A program made the position numbers and the translations under genes. Below the pieces are notes generated by a model that was given only the letters and a program-made list of their open reading frames with translations, made no database searches and was not told the origin of the DNA. Shown here piece by piece: positions 1 through 10,375 of a stretch of DNA of 64,000 nucleotides; within the stretch, counting starts at the first letter, position 1, and each line of letters opens with the position of its first letter. Origin of the DNA: Vannielia sp. (GTDB lineage Bacteria; Pseudomonadota; Alphaproteobacteria; Rhodobacterales; Rhodobacteraceae); contig NZ_JARGND010000011.1 of NCBI RefSeq assembly GCF_029212645.1, forward strand, positions 1 to 64,000. The letters run 5' to 3'.

Positions 1-307
1 CACCTGCGGCAGGTTTTTGCTGCACCTGCATTGCAAACTCGGCCAAGAGGACGTTGAACCGCGCAGGATCTTCCCACGAAGGCGCCAGGCTGGTGCCTCA
101 AAGTCATGCTCGTCGGGACGGGCGAAGGAGAGATGATTTTACGAGGAGACGTGAGCGAAGAGCAGTATCGGGCGGAGGGGTTTTTCGGAAGGTTCGGGAT
201 TTTTTGCTGCGGTTAAGCCAATTTTAGGCCGTTTAGGGCACACCCCTTAGGTGCGTTTGTTGCGGCCCTTCCGTGGTCCGTGGCCCCCCTGTGCTGGAGA
301 TATCCCT
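1..307. other. Left-edge region upstream of mcp, no confident gene
   Basis: No convincing gene is seen here. A 27-codon reading frame at 133-216 on the plus strand starts with ATG close behind AAGGAG, but its composition is not clearly coding. On the minus strand one frame reads plausibly as protein toward the left edge (ending ...AEFAMQVQQKPAAG), but it has an in-frame TGA upstream and no clear ribosome binding site, so it may be the first codons of a gene running off the window or simply noncoding. The right-hand part carries the mcp promoter region with a CtrA-like box. Confidence 0.4.
213..227 (+). promoter_or_regulatory. Candidate CtrA box upstream of mcp (TTAA-N7-TTAG)
   Basis: The sequence TTAAGCCAATTTTAG matches the alphaproteobacterial CtrA consensus TTAA-N7-TTAA at 7 of 8 fixed positions. 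It lies about 80 bases upstream of the receptor gene start. CtrA is known to control motility and chemotaxis genes in Rhodobacteraceae. A second near-match precedes the opposite che operon and a perfect one precedes cckA in this window. Binding is inferred. Confidence 0.4.
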
Positions 308-3300
308 GTGACGTTGCTGCGAAACATGCCGCTGAGCCGCAAGCTCCCCTTGATGATCATCACCCTTTTGGCGCTGGCTTGTCTGTCGCTCACCGCGTTC
401 TTTGTTTGGCAAAGCCGTCAAGCCGAATTGCAGGTGGCCGAGGCCACGCTGGGGCGGATCGTGACAGAGGATTCGGCGGCGCTGCAAAGCTGGGTCAATA
501 CCATCCGAAACGATCTGGAGGGGAACGCGCAGGAAACGCAAGTCACGCAGGCGCTGCAACGGTTTGATCATGCCTTTGAATCGGTTGGTGACACCCCGAC
601 CGAGACGCTGCAGCAGGCTTATATCGTCGATAATCCGCACCCGACGGGCCAAAAGCATTTGCTGGATTATGCTGATGACCGCAGTCCCTACAGCATTACA
701 CATAGGCGCTACCATCCGTTGTTTCGCACGTTGCGTCAGGTGCGCGGCTATCACGATATTTTCCTGTTCGATACCGATGGGAACCTTGTTTACAGCGTGT
801 TCAAACAGGCGGATTTTGCCACCAATTTTAACGCCGGGCCGTTTGCTGACAGTGGGTTGGGCGACGCCTATCGCAGCGCGATGGAACGTGCGGGCAGCGC
901 ACAGCCGGTGGCCTTTGTGGATTTCGCGCCCTACCACCCGTCGGGTGGGGCTTTTGCGGGCTTTGCGGCGATTGCGCTGAGGGGGCAGGCGGGCGAGACA
1001 CTGGGCGTGATGGTGATGCAAGTTCCTACCGATCAGATCACGCCCTTGCTGCGCCATAGCGGATCTGAGCTGAAAAAGGTGAATGTGAGCCTGATTGGCG
1101 GCGATCATCTGCCGCGCGACCGCGCGTTTGATGAAGGCACCGCACTGGTCAAAAGTCCGGCAATTGAAGCGGCGCTGGCGGGGCAAAGTGGCGAGGTCAA
1201 GGGCCTGTTGATGACCGGAGAACAGGGTGTGGGCCTCTACGCCCCGGTTGAACTGGCCGGATTTCGGTGGGCCGTGGTGGCCGAGCAGAGCTATGGCGCG
1301 ATTTTTGCGCGCTCAAACCGCTTGTTGCAACATATCGCAATCGGTTGCGCCGCCTTGATGCTCGTGGGTGTGGCGGCGGCGCTGTGGATGTCGCGCGGGA
1401 TCACGCTTCCAGTGAATCGGGTGCATAGTGGCTTGGAGCGGCTTGCCCAGGGCCAATATGACAGCCCTATGGGGGCAGGCGGGCGCCAGGATGAGATTGG
1501 CCAGATGGCTGAAAGCGCCGAATCCCTGCGGCACAAGCTCGTCGAAGCGCGGGCCGCAGAGCTTGACAATACGTTCCGTGGAGCGGGCTTTCAGGCGGGC
1601 TCGTCTCCGATGATGCTGCTCGATGGCGACTTGACGGTGACCTATGCCAACGAGGCGATGTTCGACTTTTTTGAAAGCAACGCCGCGATGCTGGCCAAGG
1701 CCGGAAAAGCGGCTGGGCGCGATGCCATGGTGGGCCGCCCCCTTGGTGAGTTGATGCCGAACGCCAGCCAGGTGAAAGCGGCGCTCGCTAGACCGGAGGA
1801 ACTGCCGACAACGGTGTTTTTCCGTATCGAAGACACGCGATTTGCACTCAAGATCGCGCCGGTTCGCGATGAGCGCGGCGAGGTGATCGGCACGGTGGCC
1901 GAATGGGCGAACGCGACGCAGGACTTTCTTGACCGGGCGTTGATGAACTCGATCGACCGCTTCCTTGCCACCATTCGGATGGATCGGGCGGGGCGCGTTC
2001 TTTCCGTGAACGATACTATGGCGAAGGTGCTTGGACGACAGTCAGACTCGCTGAGAGGTGAGCAGGCGCTTGACGTGTTCGACTTTGACGCAACACTTGC
2101 CTCCGAGCGCGGCGCGCTGCTCGACCGGCTGGACAAGGGCGAAGACGTTTTTGGCCTGTTCAAGCTTTGCGGCGCGGACGGCAAGCGCTATTGGCTGCAA
2201 GGGGGATTCAGCCCGGTACTCGATACCGATGGCAAGCCTGCGATGTTCCTGTTCGTGGGCTCCGATATCACGGTGGACCGTGAAAAACTGCTGGCCACCG
2301 AAGAGGAACAGGCCCGCAAGACGGTGGCGCAGGAGCTGGTCGTTGACAGGCTGCGCAGCGGCTTGAAAGCGCTGGCCGAAGGCGATTTGACTCTGACGCT
2401 CGATGAGAGCTTTGCGCCGGAATATGAAGAGTTGCGCCATAATTATAACGATGCTGCTACCGGCCTGCGCCAAGCCATGGCGCTGGTGCTCGACAATAGC
2501 GGCACGATTCACCGTGAGGTTCGGGGCATTGTAAACTCTGCGGATGATCTATCGAGGCGCACCGAGAAACAGGCGACCACGCTGGAAGAAACGGCAGCCG
2601 CGCTTGATCAACTCACCTCATCGGTGCGCTCTGCTGCTGAGGGCGCGACGCAGGCCAACCAGATGGCCAATGATGCGCGCGGCAATGCCGAAAAGGGCGG
2701 CGATGTTGTGAGTGAAGCGGTGTCGGCGATGAGCGAAATTGCCGAGAGTTCGGAGAAAATTACCAAGATCATCAATGTGATCGATGATATTGCTTTCCAG
2801 ACCAACCTGCTTGCGCTCAATGCAGGGGTTGAGGCCGCGCGGGCGGGTGAGGCGGGCCGCGGCTTTGCCGTGGTGGCCTCGGAAGTTAGAGCGCTGGCGC
2901 AGCGCAGCTCGGAAGCGGCGCGCGAGATTAATGCGCTGATTTCGGCCTCGGGTGATAGCGTGCGGCGCGGTGTGGATCTGGTGGGCGAAACTGGTAACGC
3001 GCTGCGCGGCATCGTCGCGAGCGTCAAGCGGGTTGCCAGCAATGTGGGCGAAATTGCCGCTTCTGCCCAGGAACAATCGGCAGGGTTGGGAGAGATCAAT
3101 TCGGCGATGAATCAGCTTGATCAGGTGACCCAGCAAAATGCCGCAATGTTTGAAGAGACCAACGCCGCCAGCCAGGCGCTATCGGATGAGGCGGATGGGT
3201 TGCGGGAAACCATGGCGCAATTCCGGCTTGGCGATGTAAGCGAAATGTCGACACCGCCAGAGCCGACCTTGCGCCGGCAGGAGGCTTCGGTGGGAACGGA

Positions 3301-3415
3301 CGCCCCTGCGTCAATCCCGCCGCCACCAACTTTCCAAAGCGCCCGGCGACCGGTGCCGGCAGGTAGCGCGGCGCTGGCCCCTGAGCCAGAAACCGACAGA
3401 TGGGAGGAGTTCTAG
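308..3415 (+). CDS. Methyl-accepting chemotaxis protein with PAS domains
   Basis: This is a transmembrane chemoreceptor of about 1035 residues that would pass ligand signals to CheA through CheW. The GTG at 308 is chosen because GGAGA lies seven bases upstream; the listed ORF starts earlier without such a site. One membrane segment lies near residues 12-32, followed by a large periplasmic cache-like sensor region and a second membrane segment near 355-375. A HAMP-like linker and two PAS-like regions follow. The conserved hairpin tip of the signalling domain is clear ([20 protein letters not shown]). The protein ends in RWEEF, which fits the xWxxF tether that recruits CheR and CheB. cheB and cheD follow on the same strand. 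Confidence 0.93.
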
Positions 3416-3451: not shown

Positions 3452-4561
3452 ATGACAAAAGCAGAGATCCCGCCGCGATCCCTTAAGGTCGAGTCCACAG
3501 GAATAGCCCCGCCGATGGAACCCAGAAAACGTGTTGTGATCGTGGATGATAGCGCTAGCCTCAGGGCTCTGCTGCGCCAACTCCTTGAACGAGATGGAAG
3601 ATTTGTGGTGACCGGCGAGGCGGGCGATCCCTATGAGGCGCGCGAGGTGATCCGCCGTGCGCCGCCTGATGTGGTGACGCTGGATGTCGAGATGCCGCGA
3701 ATGGACGGGCTATGCTTTCTGGAAAAGATTGTGACGCTGAAGCCTTTGCCGGTGGTCATGCTGTCTTCCACCACGGGCCGTGGCTCTGCGATGGCGATTG
3801 AGGCGCTCGCCATGGGCGCGGTCGATGCGGTCGGCAAGGATCGGCTGGCCGAGCCCGGCGCGGTGCAAAACCTTTGTGACCGGATCCACGATGCCGCCCA
3901 GGCAAGGGTTGTCAAAAGGATAACGCGCGCGCCATGGGTGGACCACGCGCAGTTTCGTTGGAACGGAAGGATCATCATGATCGGCTCTTCCACCGGGGGC
4001 GTGGAGGCGCTTGAGCGGGTGCTCGGCGGGATGCCCTCGAACGCTCCGCCCGTGGTGGTGGTGCAGCATATGCCGCAGCATTTCATGGAAAGCCTGACGC
4101 GCCGTTTGGCAGGACGACTTACGCCGCGCGTTGTGTTGGCGCGCAATGGGCTGGAACTGGAACAGGGGATGATCGCCTTTGCCCCTGGCGGACCGCACCA
4201 TCTGGCGTTGCGCCCTGGTCGCTGCCCGCAAGCTCTGCCTTGCACGGTTTTGGAGGAAGGATCGCTGGTGAATGGTCATCAGCCCTCGGTCGATCATTTG
4301 TTTTATTCGGCGCAGGCTTTTGCGAAGCGCGTTGTCGCGGTGCTGCTCACCGGGATGGGCCGGGACGGCGCCGAGGGGATGCTGGCGCTGCGTAGGGCCG
4401 GGGCGAGCAGCCTTGCTCAGGATGAACACTCCAGCACCGTTTGGGGCATGCCCCGTGTGGCTTGGGAAATTGGTGCGGCCGAGGCGCAAGTTTCGCTTGA
4501 CCACATGGCGGCGGCCCTGCTGGACCTGTGCGGCCAGACAGAACGGGTGGCCCAGTTATGA
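3452..4561 (+). CDS. cheB: Chemotaxis response regulator protein-glutamate methylesterase
   Basis: CheB removes methyl groups from receptor glutamates, and deamidates glutamines, when phosphorylated by CheA. The receiver domain covers about residues 25-145 with the acidic pair VDD and phosphoacceptor Asp78 (TLDVEMPRMDG). The C-terminal esterase domain shows Ser180 (GSSTGG), His206 (VVQHMP) and the LTGMGRDGA aspartate motif, the expected catalytic triad. An alternative ATG at 3515 would start directly before the receiver domain and give about 348 residues, closer to the family norm; neither start has a strong ribosome binding site. The stop overlaps the cheD start in ATGA, so the two are translationally coupled. 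Confidence 0.95.
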   Translation: MTKAEIPPRSLKVESTGIAPPMEPRKRVVIVDDSASLRALLRQLLERDGRFVVTGEAGDPYEAREVIRRAPPDVVTLDVEMPRMDGLCFLEKIVTLKPLPVVMLSSTTGRGSAMAIEALAMGAVDAVGKDRLAEPGAVQNLCDRIHDAAQARVVKRITRAPWVDHAQFRWNGRIIMIGSSTGGVEALERVLGGMPSNAPPVVVVQHMPQHFMESLTRRLAGRLTPRVVLARNGLELEQGMIAFAPGGPHHLALRPGRCPQALPCTVLEEGSLVNGHQPSVDHLFYSAQAFAKRVVAVLLTGMGRDGAEGMLALRRAGASSLAQDEHSSTVWGMPRVAWEIGAAEAQVSLDHMAAALLDLCGQTERVAQL

Positions 4562-5082
4562 GCGATCTTCGGCGCAATGCGATTCATGTGGCGCAAGGGG
4601 AGCATCGGGTGAGCTGCGATAGCGAGGTGATGCTGACGACGATCCTTGGCAGCTGTGTGTCGGTTTGCATGTGGGAACCGCAGGCGCGGCTGGGGGGAAT
4701 GAATCACATTTTGCTTCCCGGCGGTGATGGCACCGATCTTTACAAGACGGCGGTTGGTGCCAATGCGATGGAATTGTTGATCAATGGCATGTTGAAAGCC
4801 GGGGCCGAGCGCAGTCGATTGGAGGCGAAGGTTTTTGGCGGGGCGCGCATGATCCGGGCCACCAGTGATATCGGCGCGCGCAACGGAACGTTTGTGCTGG
4901 AGTTTTTGCGGCGCGAGGGCATTTTGCTGACTGGAGAAAGCCTTGGCGGGACGCAAGGGCGGAGGGTGCAGTATTGGCCTGAGAGCGGACGGGCGCGCCA
5001 ACTGCTGATCGCCAAATATGAAGAGGCGAATGTGCCTCTGCCGACGCAAGCGGAGACTGGCAGCGACTTGGAATTGTTTTGA
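4558..5082 (+). CDS. cheD: Chemoreceptor glutamine deamidase CheD
   Basis: CheD deamidates receptor glutamines and can also modulate CheC-type phosphatases. The ATG at 4558 overlaps the cheB stop, giving 174 residues; the listed ORF start at 4528 lies inside cheB and is not needed. Catalytic residues are visible as Thr27, Cys33 and His50 in TTILGSCVSVCMWE and GGMNHILLPGG. Their spacing equals that of the characterised Thermotoga enzyme (Thr21, Cys27, His44). It closes the plus-strand arm of the chemotaxis locus and converges on the minus-strand che operon. Confidence 0.95.
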   Translation: MSDLRRNAIHVAQGEHRVSCDSEVMLTTILGSCVSVCMWEPQARLGGMNHILLPGGDGTDLYKTAVGANAMELLINGMLKAGAERSRLEAKVFGGARMIRATSDIGARNGTFVLEFLRREGILLTGESLGGTQGRRVQYWPESGRARQLLIAKYEEANVPLPTQAETGSDLELF

Positions 5083-5219: not shown

Positions 5220-5606
5220 TTAGAACAGGTGAATATCACCGGGCGGCTGTTCTTGCTCCAAGGCCGTTTCTCCGCCGGACAAGAGCGCGATACGGCAGCT
5301 TTCAAGCCGTAGGAGTCCGGCCAAGGTGGCGACGCAGATACGTTCGTCGGCACCGGAACTTTCGGCAGCAAGGTGAGCGGCTGCGCGCAGGTCATCCAAC
5401 GTTTGGTGAATGAGATCAAGACCTTGCAACTCCCTCAACTGGGCGTCGCTGGGATGCCCAGCACCGTCCAGAAAGCGCGACAAGTCTTGCTGCATCTGCG
5501 CCGTGCGTCCGGCCAGCCCATCGAGGGTGGTGGCCAACCGCGCCATTAACTCTGCCATTGGCAGTTCGGCAGCATCGGCAGGCGCTGGGCGGGAAGGCGG
5601 GTTCAC
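5220..5606 (-). CDS. Small helical che-operon protein, CheZ-like signature (function unknown)
   Basis: I do not recognise this 128-residue protein as a named family. It is the last gene of the minus-strand che operon; its GTG start overlaps the TGA stop of the second cheY in GTGA, so it is very likely translated with it. The sequence is predicted almost entirely helical, rich in Ala and Leu. The central segment LQGLDLIHQTLDDL has an Asp followed four residues later by Gln. That is the spacing of the catalytic pair of the CheY-P phosphatase CheZ (Asp143 and Gln147 in E. coli, QDLTGQ). At 128 residues it is much shorter than CheZ at 214. A role as a CheY-P phosphatase or CheY partner is my inference. 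Confidence 0.8.
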   Translation of the reverse strand: MNPPSRPAPADAAELPMAELMARLATTLDGLAGRTAQMQQDLSRFLDGAGHPSDAQLRELQGLDLIHQTLDDLRAAAHLAAESSGADERICVATLAGLLRLESCRIALLSGGETALEQEQPPGDIHLF

Positions 5607-5989
5607 AGCCGACCCACCACGGCTTCCATGCAGTTCTGCAAGTCTTTGGGTTGAAACGGCTTCTTGATGAAGTTGTTCATACCAAGGGCGCGGCCAGTAT
5701 CGATGATCTGCTTGTCTGCTTTGCCGGTGATCAGGATGAAACCGATGGCCTTGAGCCGTGCGTGGGTGCGCAGCGCCTTGAGCAGCTGCAGGCCGTCCAT
5801 CCCAGGCATGTTATAGTCGGAGATCACAAGATGGGCCGGCTTTTTTTCCAGTTCGGCCATGGCGGCATTTCCGTCAGTCGTGTAGCGCACATTGGTCACG
5901 CCCATCGCATCGAGGGCTTGCAGGATGAGACCACGGCTTGTGGACATGTCATCGACAACCATGACGTGGAGCTTTTCGCGAAGGGACAT
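5603..5989 (-). CDS. cheY: Single-domain response regulator CheY (second copy)
   Basis: A stand-alone receiver domain of 128 residues that would be phosphorylated by CheA and act on the flagellar motor or as a phosphate sink. The start MSLREKLH is chosen because AGGAG precedes it at good spacing; the longer ORF reaches into cheR. The acidic pair VVDD (residues 11-14), phosphoacceptor Asp58 (VISDYNMPGMDG), the ITG switch threonine and the KKPF lysine are all present. It follows cheR after four bases and overlaps the downstream orf128. Together with the copy at 9611 it gives two CheY proteins in one operon, a common alphaproteobacterial arrangement. Confidence 0.95.
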   Translation of the reverse strand: MSLREKLHVMVVDDMSTSRGLILQALDAMGVTNVRYTTDGNAAMAELEKKPAHLVISDYNMPGMDGLQLLKALRTHARLKAIGFILITGKADKQIIDTGRALGMNNFIKKPFQPKDLQNCMEAVVGRL

Positions 5990-5993
5990 CAGG

Positions 5994-6923
5994 CTACTCC
6001 TGCTGTGGCCCGGATTTTCCAGGCTCTGTGTTGGGCAGATAGGTGAAGGTCGTTTGGCCGACCTGCTGGAAATCGCGGGTTGAGGCAGGATCAATCCGTT
6101 CGGAGTGACCGAGGTAAAGCGCGGCGCCGGGCGAGCAGACGCCAGCGAAGCGATCAATCAGCTTTTTCTGGGTGCCCTGATCGAAATAGATCATCACGTT
6201 GCGGCAAAAGATGGCGTCGAAACGACCGGTCATGGGCCAGTTTGACATCAGGTTGAGCCGGTTGAACGCGATCAGGGATTTGAGCTCTGGCGCGGCTTCG
6301 ATTTCGTGCTCACCAACCGCAGGGTTGAAGAACCGCTTGCGTCTGGCGGGGGCGATTTGCTCGGCGAGATCGGCGGGATAGATACCAGCGCGGGCGGCGG
6401 TTAGGATTTGACGATCGACGTCGGTGGCCAAGATGCGCAGATCATACCTGGAGGCTTCGGGGAATTGCTCCAATATGACCATGGCGAGGGAATATGCCTC
6501 CTGCCCCGATGAGCAGGCCGCTGACCAGAGGCGGACGCGCCCGCCCGCGCGTGCGCGGCGTTCCAGGGTGGGCAGAATCTGGTTTGCGAAATGCTCGAAA
6601 TGGTGGTTCTCGCGGAAAAAACTGGTGACATTGGTGGTGAGCGCCGAGATCAGGTTTTCACGCTCTTGCGTGCCGTTTGGCCCTTCGATCAGCGCAACAT
6701 ATGTGGCGGCATCGGGCAAGCCGAGCGCGCGCAGGCGCTTGCCGATCCGCGAGAAAACCACGGCGGCCTTTTCGGGCAGGATGCTGAGGGCCGCCTCTGT
6801 GTGCGCGATGCGGGCAATCGCATCGAACTGGGCGCGTTGGTCTGCCGACAAGGGGGGTGTTGCGGCGGGTGGCGGCGAGGTGGGACGCGCATCCGGGTAG
6901 GGGATGGGGGCGGCGTGGCTCAT
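5994..6923 (-). CDS. cheR: Chemotaxis protein methyltransferase CheR
   Basis: CheR methylates receptor glutamates with S-adenosylmethionine. The 309-residue protein has the N-terminal helical domain ending in TTNVTSFFRENHHF (near 96-109), the SAM-binding loop WSAACSSGQEAYSLAM (133-148), the acidic ILATDVD strand (164-170) and the CRNVMIYFD motif. The first 25 residues are Pro/Ala-rich and look like an extra disordered tail. The start overlaps the cheW stop in ATGA. The receptor in this locus ends in a CheR-type tether pentapeptide, so the pair fit together functionally. Confidence 0.96.
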   Translation of the reverse strand: MSHAAPIPYPDARPTSPPPAATPPLSADQRAQFDAIARIAHTEAALSILPEKAAVVFSRIGKRLRALGLPDAATYVALIEGPNGTQERENLISALTTNVTSFFRENHHFEHFANQILPTLERRARAGGRVRLWSAACSSGQEAYSLAMVILEQFPEASRYDLRILATDVDRQILTAARAGIYPADLAEQIAPARRKRFFNPAVGEHEIEAAPELKSLIAFNRLNLMSNWPMTGRFDAIFCRNVMIYFDQGTQKKLIDRFAGVCSPGAALYLGHSERIDPASTRDFQQVGQTTFTYLPNTEPGKSGPQQE

Positions 6924-7396
6924 GCGGCTTCGCTATCCGGTTGCGGCAGGACGGCGGCGAGATCAAGCACGCGCAACATGCGGTCTTCGTAGATGGTGAG
7001 CGCGCGCACGCATTTCAGCGAACCATCGGAGGACATATCGGGCGGGGCCTGAAGCTCGCTGTCGGAGACGGTGAAGATATCGGAGACGGCATCGACCAGC
7101 AGGCCAACGGTGTTGTCGCCGGATTGAACCACGACGATGACGTTGCGGTCGGTCTTTTCGCCCGCCGGAATGGCCAGCCGTTTGGCGAGGTCGATGATGG
7201 GCAGGACCGTGCCGCGCAGGTTGATGACCCCGCGCACGTAGGGCGGCGCGTGAGGCAGGGGGGTGGCCTCTGTCCAGCTGCGGATTTCGCGCACCGAGAT
7301 AATGTCGATCGAGTATTCCTGGAGGCCGACATGGAAGCTGAGAAGCTCTTGGCGGGAAGGGTCCTGTTCGGTATCTTCTATTGCGGGTATGTTCAT
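6920..7396 (-). CDS. cheW: Chemotaxis coupling protein CheW
   Basis: CheW couples receptors to CheA in the array. The 158-residue protein starts at MNIPAIED; the longer ORF reaches into cheA. Conserved family features include the FHVGLQEYSIDIISVREI strand, the PYVRGVINLRGTVLPIIDL core and a C-terminal ILDL-like strand (VLDLAAVLP). It lies four bases after cheA and overlaps cheR. Nothing unusual is seen. Confidence 0.96.
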   Translation of the reverse strand: MNIPAIEDTEQDPSRQELLSFHVGLQEYSIDIISVREIRSWTEATPLPHAPPYVRGVINLRGTVLPIIDLAKRLAIPAGEKTDRNVIVVVQSGDNTVGLLVDAVSDIFTVSDSELQAPPDMSSDGSLKCVRALTIYEDRMLRVLDLAAVLPQPDSEAA

Positions 7397-7400
7397 GGTG

Positions 7401-9611
7401 TTATCCTGCAATGGCAAAGGGTTGTGCGGAGTGAGGGCCGCTGGAGCCAGCACTGGCGATCAGGTCGGTGGGATCGAGGATCAGGGCGATGCGACCGTTG
7501 CCCAGGATGGTCGCGGCGGCGATGCCGGCGACCCTTCCGTAGCTTTCCTGAAGGCCCTTGATCACGACCTGCCGCTGCTCGACGATCCGGTCAACCACCA
7601 GCGCGGTGCGGGAGTTGTCCTCGGACGTGATCAACAGCACCGAGCGCCCCTCGTAACCTTCAAGCGGGGTGCGGAAACCCAGCTCTACGGCGAGGTCGAG
7701 GATGGGCACAAATTCTTCGCGGATGCGCACGAGGGTGGTATCGGCGCCAAGCTGCTCTATATCGGCGGCGGTGAGGGTGAGGGTTTCGGCGATGGAGCCG
7801 AGGGGGACCACGAGAGTTTCACCACCGGTTTCCACGACCATGCCATCGAGCACCGCGAGGGTGAGGGGCAGGGAGATGGAGAATGTGGTGCCACTGCCCG
7901 GCTCGGAGGTGATGGTAACGCGCCCGCCAAGTGCCTGAATGGCAGAGCGCACGACATCCATGCCGACCCCGCGACCGGAAAGATCGGAGACCTCCGTGGC
8001 GGTAGAAAAACCGGGGAGAAACAGAAGGTTATCAATTTCCTGATCCTGCATCTGCACGCCGGGGGGGATGAGACCCTTATCCTCGGCGATTTGTTTGACG
8101 CGCTCGCGGTTGATGCCGGAGCCATCATCCTTGACCTCCAGCACGACGCGGCCCGATTTATGGGCAGCGGTGAGGGTGACGATGCCATCTGCGCTTTTGC
8201 CAGCGGCGAGGCGGCCATCGGTATTTTCCAGCCCGTGATCGACCGCGTTGCGCACCATATGGGTGAGGGGGTCGGCGAGGCGCTCCAGCACGGTTTTGTC
8301 GATCTCGGTTTGCTCGCCTTCGGTGACGAAGCGCACGGATTTTCCGACCATGGCGGAGCTTTCGCGGATGATGCGGCTCATCCGCTGGAACAGGGATTTC
8401 ACCGGCTGGGCGCGAATCATCATCACGCTTTCCTGAATGTCGCGCGTGAGTTGGAGGAATTCCTCAAGCCCGGAGCCGACGGCGGAATTGGTGGGCACCC
8501 CGGCCTCGGTGATGCTTTGGGAGAGCATGGCCTGATTGATGACCAGCTCGCCAACGAGGTTCACCAACCGCTCGATGCGATCGAGATCGACGCGGACGGT
8601 GGCTTTGGCGCTGCCGGTGGATTTGTCTTTGGATTTGGCCGGAGCGGGGGGGCTGGAGGCCGAGGGCGGCGTGGCGGGGGCGGGTTCTGGCGTGGCGTCC
8701 TGGGGCGGGGTGTCATCATCGGGCCGGGGGCCGGGGATAACGATGTTCTCAAGGTCAATGCTCTCGAGATCAGGCAGGGCCGGGGCGCTGCCGGTGGCCT
8801 CGATGGAGAGTTCGCAGAGGCCATCGACGAACTCGAAAACCTCGGCGATTTCCTCTTTGCGGGCGGAGGTTTCGAGCGTGATGTGCCAGCCGACGACGCC
8901 CTGTTCGGGGACAAGGCCGGTAAGATCTGGCAGGTTGGAGAGATCGCAGGTGATGTGCGGTTCGCCAAAATCGCGCAGGGCGGCGAGCATGTGGCGGGGT
9001 TCGTTCCCTGAGGCGAAGAGTTCGGCGGCAGGGTGGAAGGCGATCTTGAAGCCCGCAGGGGCGGAAGAGGTGGGCGGAATGGCGGGGTCATCAAGGGGCG
9101 CGTCAAGGTCCATCAGGGCGAAGCCGCTGTGGTCATCGCCGTCGATGGGATCAAGCGAGAGGGACATTGGGGTGAAATCGGCGCCCTCCGCCTCTTCGGC
9201 CTCTTCCTCGGCCAGCCGTGCGCCGACCAGTGCCTCAAGATCAACGAGGATCAACTCGACGGTGGCGTCATCGAGGCTTTCATCATCGCGCGAGGCGCGG
9301 ACCAGATCGAAGAGCACATCGGCCCCGCGGAAGAAGAGCGAGATGGTATCGCGGGTGGGCTCAAGGCGTCCGTTGCGGATTTCGTCCATCACCGTTTCGA
9401 AGCGGTGGGCGAAGCGCACGAGGGCCTCCAGCCCAAAGGCCCCGGCGCCGCCCTTGATAGAGTGGACGGCGCGGAAGCACACATTGATGGTTTCACTGTC
9501 GAAATCGCCATCATCCATGGCGGTGAGCCCGTCTTGCAGGCTTTCGAGCAGTTCCTCGCATTCGATAAAGAACGAGGCGCGGATTTCGGCCATCGGATCA
9601 ATATCAGCCAT
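7401..9611 (-). CDS. cheA: Chemotaxis histidine kinase CheA
   Basis: CheA is the central kinase: it autophosphorylates and passes phosphate to CheY and CheB. The 736-residue protein shows the phosphotransfer domain with His50 (FRAVHSIKGGAGAFG), a long acidic and Pro/Ala-rich linker (about 135-345) that holds the P2 region, the dimerisation helices (near 350-400), the ATP-binding domain (HMVRNAVDHGLE, DDGSGI, GRGVGMDVV) and a C-terminal CheW-like domain. The start overlaps the upstream cheY stop. The +strand 582-residue ORF over the same bases is an antisense shadow. Confidence 0.97.
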   Translation of the reverse strand: MADIDPMAEIRASFFIECEELLESLQDGLTAMDDGDFDSETINVCFRAVHSIKGGAGAFGLEALVRFAHRFETVMDEIRNGRLEPTRDTISLFFRGADVLFDLVRASRDDESLDDATVELILVDLEALVGARLAEEEAEEAEGADFTPMSLSLDPIDGDDHSGFALMDLDAPLDDPAIPPTSSAPAGFKIAFHPAAELFASGNEPRHMLAALRDFGEPHITCDLSNLPDLTGLVPEQGVVGWHITLETSARKEEIAEVFEFVDGLCELSIEATGSAPALPDLESIDLENIVIPGPRPDDDTPPQDATPEPAPATPPSASSPPAPAKSKDKSTGSAKATVRVDLDRIERLVNLVGELVINQAMLSQSITEAGVPTNSAVGSGLEEFLQLTRDIQESVMMIRAQPVKSLFQRMSRIIRESSAMVGKSVRFVTEGEQTEIDKTVLERLADPLTHMVRNAVDHGLENTDGRLAAGKSADGIVTLTAAHKSGRVVLEVKDDGSGINRERVKQIAEDKGLIPPGVQMQDQEIDNLLFLPGFSTATEVSDLSGRGVGMDVVRSAIQALGGRVTITSEPGSGTTFSISLPLTLAVLDGMVVETGGETLVVPLGSIAETLTLTAADIEQLGADTTLVRIREEFVPILDLAVELGFRTPLEGYEGRSVLLITSEDNSRTALVVDRIVEQRQVVIKGLQESYGRVAGIAAATILGNGRIALILDPTDLIASAGSSGPHSAQPFAIAG

Positions 9612-9994
9612 CAGGCGGCTCCCTTTCCGGCGACCATGTTGAGGGCGCGGATCAGCTTGGAAGGATCGAATGGCTTAACAATCCAGCCGGTTGCACCGGC
9701 GGTGCGGGCGCGGCTTTTGAGTTCGTCGGCGCTTTCGGTGGAGAGCACGAGGATCGGGATTGCCTGATAGGTATCCTGCGCGCGCACGGCATCAATGAAG
9801 CCAAAACCATCCATGCGGGGCATGTTGATGTCGGTGATGATGGCATCGGGCTGTTCGCTCATGTCTTTGAGCGTTTCAAGCCCGTCGACCCCGTCTTCGG
9901 CGGTGGTGGCCTCAAACCCGGCCTGTGTGAGGGCGAGGCGGAGCATGTCGCGGATTGTGCGACTGTCGTCCACGGCGAGGATGGAGAGGCTCAT
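9611..9994 (-). CDS. cheY: Single-domain response regulator CheY (first copy)
   Basis: A 127-residue receiver domain starting at MSLSILAV; the ORF extension upstream lies in the STAS gene. The acidic pair VDD, phosphoacceptor Asp55 (IITDINMPRMDG), the STES switch region and the VKPF lysine are intact. It overlaps cheA (ATGA) and the upstream STAS gene (ATGA), placing it second in the operon. It differs considerably from the second copy at 5603, so the two probably do different jobs, for example motor binding and phosphate sink. That division is inferred. Confidence 0.95.
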   Translation of the reverse strand: MSLSILAVDDSRTIRDMLRLALTQAGFEATTAEDGVDGLETLKDMSEQPDAIITDINMPRMDGFGFIDAVRAQDTYQAIPILVLSTESADELKSRARTAGATGWIVKPFDPSKLIRALNMVAGKGAA

Positions 9995-10281
9995 AAGGCG
10001 GGCTCCTTGCTGCATAGATCGTCAGGGGTGAGCCCGAATATGGCGAGTTGGGCGGCGCACTCCTTGGAGAGGCCCTCCAGCGAGAGGGGGAGGCCGCTTT
10101 TGCGCCAGGTGGCGGCGGCAGAGAGCAAGACCTGCAGGCCGGGGGTGCCGATAGCCTCGCAGGCGGTGGCCTCCAGCGTGAGGGGCTTGCCGACATGCGC
10201 CTTGAGATCGGTGGCGAGCGGCCCGGCGGAGGGGAGATCAAGCCGAGCGGGCAGGGCGAGGCGGTGGTATGCATCGCTCAT
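9991..10281 (-). CDS. STAS-domain protein heading the che operon
   Basis: A 96-residue protein resembling STAS domains (anti-sigma antagonist-like, MlaB type). It has the LPARLDLPSAGPLATDL start strand, a central GTPGLQVLLSAAATWRKSGLPLSL segment and a C-terminal LFG-like IFGLTPDD. Small STAS proteins at the head of che operons are found in several alphaproteobacteria, but their partner is not known to me. The usual phosphorylatable Ser/Thr position in the SSG-type motif reads as GTPG, so the threonine could serve. The start MSDAYHRL is chosen because the longer ORF has only noncoding sequence ahead of it. Confidence 0.75.
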   Translation of the reverse strand: MSDAYHRLALPARLDLPSAGPLATDLKAHVGKPLTLEATACEAIGTPGLQVLLSAAATWRKSGLPLSLEGLSKECAAQLAIFGLTPDDLCSKEPAL

Positions 10282-10375
10282 GGTGCGGCTCCCCAAAGGC
10301 GGGAGGTGATGGCTGTGAGCATGGGACGGCTCCTTCATCCAATCAGGGTCATCTTTGAGGGATGCCCCAGATGAA

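Follow-up and report, generated by a model that had tools for sequence, protein, structure and literature searches.

A divergent relative of CheT at the end of a Rhodobacteraceae chemotaxis operon is a candidate auxiliary CheY-P phosphatase

The last gene of a chemotaxis operon in the window (the whole 64,000-nucleotide stretch of Vannielia sp. DNA that was analyzed) encodes a small protein that profile comparison and operon type mark as a divergent homologue of CheT, a recently reported rhizobial protein that aids the shut-off of the swimming signal. We consider it likely that this gene encodes the CheT of its operon, a small three-helix auxiliary phosphatase for which the CheY1-type protein CheYa would be the favored substrate and whose tail would dock an adaptation protein. 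In the Rhodobacteraceae, the protein probably does CheT's signal-shut-off job. The CheT family itself is already known (Agbekudzi et al. 2024, doi 10.1111/mmi.15303), and a 2025 review already mentions CheT, in general terms, as one of the extra proteins that bacteria like R. sphaeroides possess. What appears to be new, as far as our searches show, is the breadth and divergence of the CheT-type family in the Rhodobacteraceae, a third invariant residue (Gln61), the absence of CheZ from the sampled family, and a tail shared with CheD.

The gene occupies positions 5220 to 5606 of the minus strand. It has 128 codons beginning with a GTG and is closed by TAA at 5222-5220, and its translation includes LQGLDLIHQTLDDL; the plus strand has no open frame across the same interval. 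The initial annotation had reported an open reading frame of 128 residues here, lying at the end of a che operon, and we find the same: the gene is on the minus strand, starts with GTG, and is the last of seven minus-strand genes. The operon begins with a gene for a single STAS domain protein (9991 to 10338; STAS_2 in Pfam), the counterpart of Sinorhizobium meliloti CheS (30%, E = 3.7e-8). It is followed by cheYa (9611 to 10015), which is of the CheY1, or phosphate-sink, type (64% to S. meliloti CheY1 versus 36% to S. meliloti CheY2), and then by cheA (7401 to 9611; 46% to S. meliloti CheA), cheW (6920 to 7453; 53% to S. meliloti CheW), the actual start of which is probably an ATG near 7396, and cheR (5994 to 6923; 46% to S. 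meliloti CheR). Next comes cheYb (5603 to 5989), which is of the CheY2, or motor, type (43% to S. meliloti CheY2 versus 28% to S. meliloti CheY1 by BLASTP); the PDB chain nearest to its product is 1p6q, S. meliloti CheY2. The GTG of the cheT-like gene and the stop codon of cheYb share 4 bases (GTGA; distance −4).

Facing this operon on the plus strand are genes for a chemoreceptor (MCP; 251 to 3415), for CheB (3452 to 4561; 45% to S. meliloti CheB), and for CheD (4528 to 5082; PF03975, 49% to S. meliloti CheD), which ends in SDLELF. The receptor ends in the pentapeptide RWEEF, of the CheR-tethering kind, and, judged by eye, PAS-like stretches apparently lie N-terminal to its signaling domain. 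Apart from the receptor, every other protein encoded in the cluster has a counterpart in the S. meliloti che operon by BLASTP, with identities of 45 to 53% for CheA, CheW, CheR, CheB, and CheD, and on this comparison the operon as a whole is orthologous to that of S. meliloti. The two share the type cheS-cheY1-cheA-cheW-cheR-...-cheY2. They differ in that the window gene directly follows the motor-type cheY whereas S. meliloti cheT follows cheD, and in that cheB and cheD lie on the opposite strand in the window, unlike in the S. meliloti operon.

S. meliloti CheT is a D-x3-Q protein that speeds the dephosphorylation of only one of two CheY proteins (PMC12654446). Our reference sequence for it is the open reading frame that an annotated che operon of S. 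meliloti (CP090106.1) carries between cheD and fliF. Because the window protein and this sequence are only weakly similar when compared directly (26% identity; BLASTP E = 0.029 in a single comparison), homology to CheT rests on the profile and the operon. A profile of 17 Rhodobacteraceae sequences, with no CheT among them (profile A1), matched S. meliloti CheT with an E value of 8.6e-8 and Shinella CheT with an E value of 2.4e-10. When the same profile was aligned with the single S. meliloti CheT sequence by hhalign, the probability was 90.7 and the E value 1.2e-6 over 94 columns; the match spans residues 12 to 109 and sets D-x3-Q against D-x3-Q. The two proteins are also similar in length (124 amino acids in S. 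meliloti and 128 in the window) and in layout, both having LQG[IL]DLxxQ in mid-protein and a terminal tail GD[FI]xxF, which reads GDFEAF in S. meliloti CheT and GDIHLF, which is not a strict aromatic pentapeptide, in the window protein. A Pfam scan of the window protein gave no match and an NCBIfam scan nothing above noise (best E = 0.033); we found no model in either collection that covers the CheT-type family, and S. meliloti and Ruegeria records file the gene as encoding a hypothetical protein. As a separate observation, CP090106.1 (3.7 Mb) is filed as pSymB of S. meliloti Ak57 and carries the main che-flagellar region, which is normally chromosomal, so its label may be wrong.

Single-sequence searches recovered few of the true homologues. 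With the window protein as query, a search of 199 Rhodobacteraceae genera yielded about 15 real homologues, each directly 3′ of a cheYb orthologue; matches to PurH were regarded as chance and dropped. Profile A1 found matches in 73 of the 199 genera, a similarity-based count that is silent on che operons without the gene. An Oceanicola MAG and Vannielia litorea both encode close relatives in a matching operon arrangement. For nearly every Rhodobacteraceae homologue that was examined, the gene adjoins cheY; at nearly all retrieved loci it stands beside cheY or cheD, and rhizobial-type operons in other families carry homologues 3′ of cheD as well. In most homologues no more than a few bases separate the start from the cheYb stop, and overlaps of 1 or 4 bases are frequent; the start codons of several were taken as those nearest the cheY stop. 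A search of plasmids with the same query gave no match. Separately, the conjugative Agrobacterium plasmid pAtCFBP6624 was seen to carry a stand-alone cheY (L174:4998-5384; 78% to S. meliloti CheY2) close to two genes for flagellin, with no other che genes within the 10 kb shown.

The D-x3-Q motif occurs once in the window protein, at residues 64 to 68 (codons Asp64-Leu-Ile-His-Gln68, 5403 to 5417, minus strand), and these are the proposed phosphatase residues. The initial annotation had cautioned that the match is short, and rightly so: 49% of shuffles of the protein's composition contain D-x3-Q, so the motif alone is no more than chance. It becomes meaningful because it is invariant among homologues. 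The annotation had suggested looking for conservation of the Asp and the Gln, and in an alignment of 75 alphaproteobacterial homologues (CheT among them, nearly all in che operons, mean identity 20%) both are kept in the same columns in 75/75 sequences. Gln61 (5424-5426, minus strand) is likewise invariant, and these three residues and the start Met are the only invariant positions. That the motif arose by chance in some unrelated helical protein, a reading that the shuffles taken by themselves would have allowed, is refuted by this alignment, and we regard it as extremely improbable.

The protein had also been described as helical, and an AlphaFold2 model, built from an alignment of three sequences, predicts just that. 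It has three helices (17-49, 54-82, and 88-109) at a mean pLDDT of 70.7, with values of 80 to 88 in blocks over residues 21 to 80 and below 50 in the tail region, which is predicted to be disordered. Asp64 and Gln68 sit before the midpoint of the second helix; on a helical wheel they and Gln61 lie within 60 degrees of one another, on the side facing away from Leu63, Ile66, Leu70, and Leu73. The monomer model is a generic three-helix bundle of moderate confidence, and the PDB fold search made with it returned generic helical bundles and was uninformative. Searching PDB sequences with the profile turned up nothing beyond coiled coils and further helical proteins matched by chance, which were rejected.

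CheZ acts through the catalytic residues Asp143 and Gln147, and the spacing of these two had led the initial annotation to propose a CheZ-like CheY-P phosphatase. The idea about function gains support from the 75/75 conservation and from homology to S. meliloti CheT, but the assignment to the CheZ family does not stand. A true, shortened member of that family would account for the identical D-x3-Q spacing, the all-helical nature, and the pathway that the two are inferred to share, and a review notes that S. meliloti CheT, as modeled by AlphaFold, is highly similar to E. coli CheZ (PMC12654446). However, profile-profile comparison of the 75-sequence family with an alignment of 18 alphaproteobacterial CheZ sequences gave a probability of 0.5% and an E value of 0.12, off register and with the wrong residues paired; the CheZ family model PF04344 had no match in Pfam scans of the window protein; and CheZ was not among the 50 best PDB fold matches. 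Around the motif CheZ has an invariant FQDxTGQ, whereas the family of the window protein has LQxxDxxxQ. CheZ (E. coli structure 1kmi) is about 220 amino acids long as against 128, its C-terminal SQxDIDALL region is absent from the window protein, and the compact three-helix monomer model may differ from the long helical hairpin and dimeric four-helix bundle of CheZ; alphaproteobacterial CheZ ends in an SQxxIDALL-type peptide, and the CheT-type family has G[DE][IV]x[LW]F instead. Membership in the CheZ family is therefore very unlikely in our judgment, and the common D-x3-Q most plausibly reflects one chemistry used by two families that are separate or only very remotely related. Another class of CheY-P phosphatases, CheC/CheX/FliY, consists of alpha/beta proteins that use E-x2-N; the window protein differs from these in being helical, in having D-x3-Q, and in lacking any Pfam match to them.

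CheZ is absent from the sampled Rhodobacteraceae: PF04344 had no match at E ≤ 10 in the source genome and was found in 0/199 genera of the family. The annotation had held that most alphaproteobacteria lack CheZ, which is borne out for the Rhodobacteraceae but does not carry over to the class, since CheZ scored above the family cut-off in 61 of the 172 alphaproteobacterial genomes sampled.

These observations suggest a mechanism. The invariant Asp64 and Gln68, together with Gln61, would enter the active site of CheY-P from a shared face, close to where the second helix begins. There, Gln68 would position a water and Asp64 would contact the conserved lysine, in the manner of Gln147 and Asp143 of CheZ. 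The favored target on grounds of homology would be the CheY1-type sink CheYa, encoded at the start of the operon; once dephosphorylation had emptied the sink, CheA would drain phosphate back from the motor protein CheYb and the signal would end. A flexible linker would bear the terminal tail GDIHLF (residues 123-128; 5223 to 5240, minus strand), which is conserved although the linker before it is variable and of low confidence in the model, and which probably serves to dock an adaptation protein, possibly CheR.

In its choice of substrate this proposal departs from the initial annotation, which had taken the coupled CheY as the expected partner. Agbekudzi et al. in 2024 reportedly identified CheY1, the phosphate sink, and not the motor protein CheY2, as the substrate of S. 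meliloti CheT, whose activity is said to be modest, at about two-fold. The coupling itself is confirmed by the 4-base overlap, but it does not identify the substrate, because the coupled CheY is of the CheY2 type and S. meliloti CheT reportedly acts on the CheY1 type. CheYa appears to be the likelier substrate than CheYb because it is the CheY1 orthologue. A CheY1-type CheY is present in 6/6 homologue-bearing genomes tested. In one genome (G441), the operon reads cheR-cheB-cheD-cheY-cheW-cheT-like gene-receptor; its only operon CheY is of the CheY1 type, no CheY2 type was found in the genome at the threshold used, and this operon may identify the true CheT partner. Taken together, these observations favor CheYa over CheYb, though only indirectly.

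Two other readings accept the homology to CheT and differ from ours in what the protein does. In the Rhodobacteraceae, the substrate could have shifted to the coupled motor protein CheYb, on which the CheT homologue would act directly, as CheZ does. That cheYb is the constant neighbor of the gene in this family, with the cheT-like start at or near its stop in most homologues, would fit such a shift, as would the lack of a CheZ to do the job. The S. meliloti homologue, however, reportedly acts on CheY1 and not CheY2, rhizobia-type operons place the gene after cheD, so that the coupling is not general, and in G441 the only CheY found with the gene is of the CheY1 type. The selectivity of CheT for a single CheY is documented (PMC12654446), and we think a shift to CheYb rather improbable. 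Alternatively, the window protein could be an adaptor that binds CheY-P and CheR and so links termination to adaptation, with D-x3-Q kept for binding in a protein that is not a working phosphatase. The complex of S. meliloti CheT with CheR (PMC12654446) and the conserved tail after a variable linker are consistent with this. Yet the residues that have stayed invariant while nearly all else drifted include the catalytic Asp and Gln of CheZ at the same spacing, and S. meliloti CheT enhances the dephosphorylation of one CheY (PMC12654446), which together make a pure adaptor unlikely. A CheT-type phosphatase acting on CheYa remains our preferred reading.

The tail deserves separate comment. Across the CheT-type family it takes the form G[DE][IV]x[LW]F after the variable linker, with the Gly present in 57/65 and the terminal Phe in 58/72 sequences at the respective alignment columns. 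Alphaproteobacterial CheD has a G[DE][IV]ELF terminus at most loci, the last residue being exactly Phe in 38/54. This terminus closely resembles the CheT-type tail and recalls the receptor pentapeptides, which at the loci examined are C-terminal and of the DWEEF type. No such terminal tail was seen in CheA, CheB, CheR, or CheW at these loci. Among 44 long open reading frames of the window, a terminal Phe is found in only two and the tail pattern in none; the set comprised the longest non-overlapping frames, so cheD was probably left out of it. The published criterion for a receptor pentapeptide is xZxxZ, where Z is F, W, or Y (PMC7390727); S. meliloti CheT, ending in DFEAF, satisfies it, and most Rhodobacteraceae CheT-type members do not strictly do so. 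These acidic-hydrophobic-aromatic tails raise the tentative idea, which we think less likely than not, that a single terminal docking code is common to alphaproteobacterial CheT, CheD, and receptors. If so, CheT and CheD would compete with the receptors for CheR or CheB, coupling termination to adaptation, and the binding of CheT to CheR would be explained.

The CheT family is far more divergent than its rhizobial examples suggest. Its invariant Gln61, three residues before the Asp, is a further residue worth mutating, and the tail common to CheT and CheD makes the unexplained CheT-CheR binding testable. For the Rhodobacteraceae, a large family without CheZ in the 199 genera sampled, the window protein provides a concrete candidate for signal termination.
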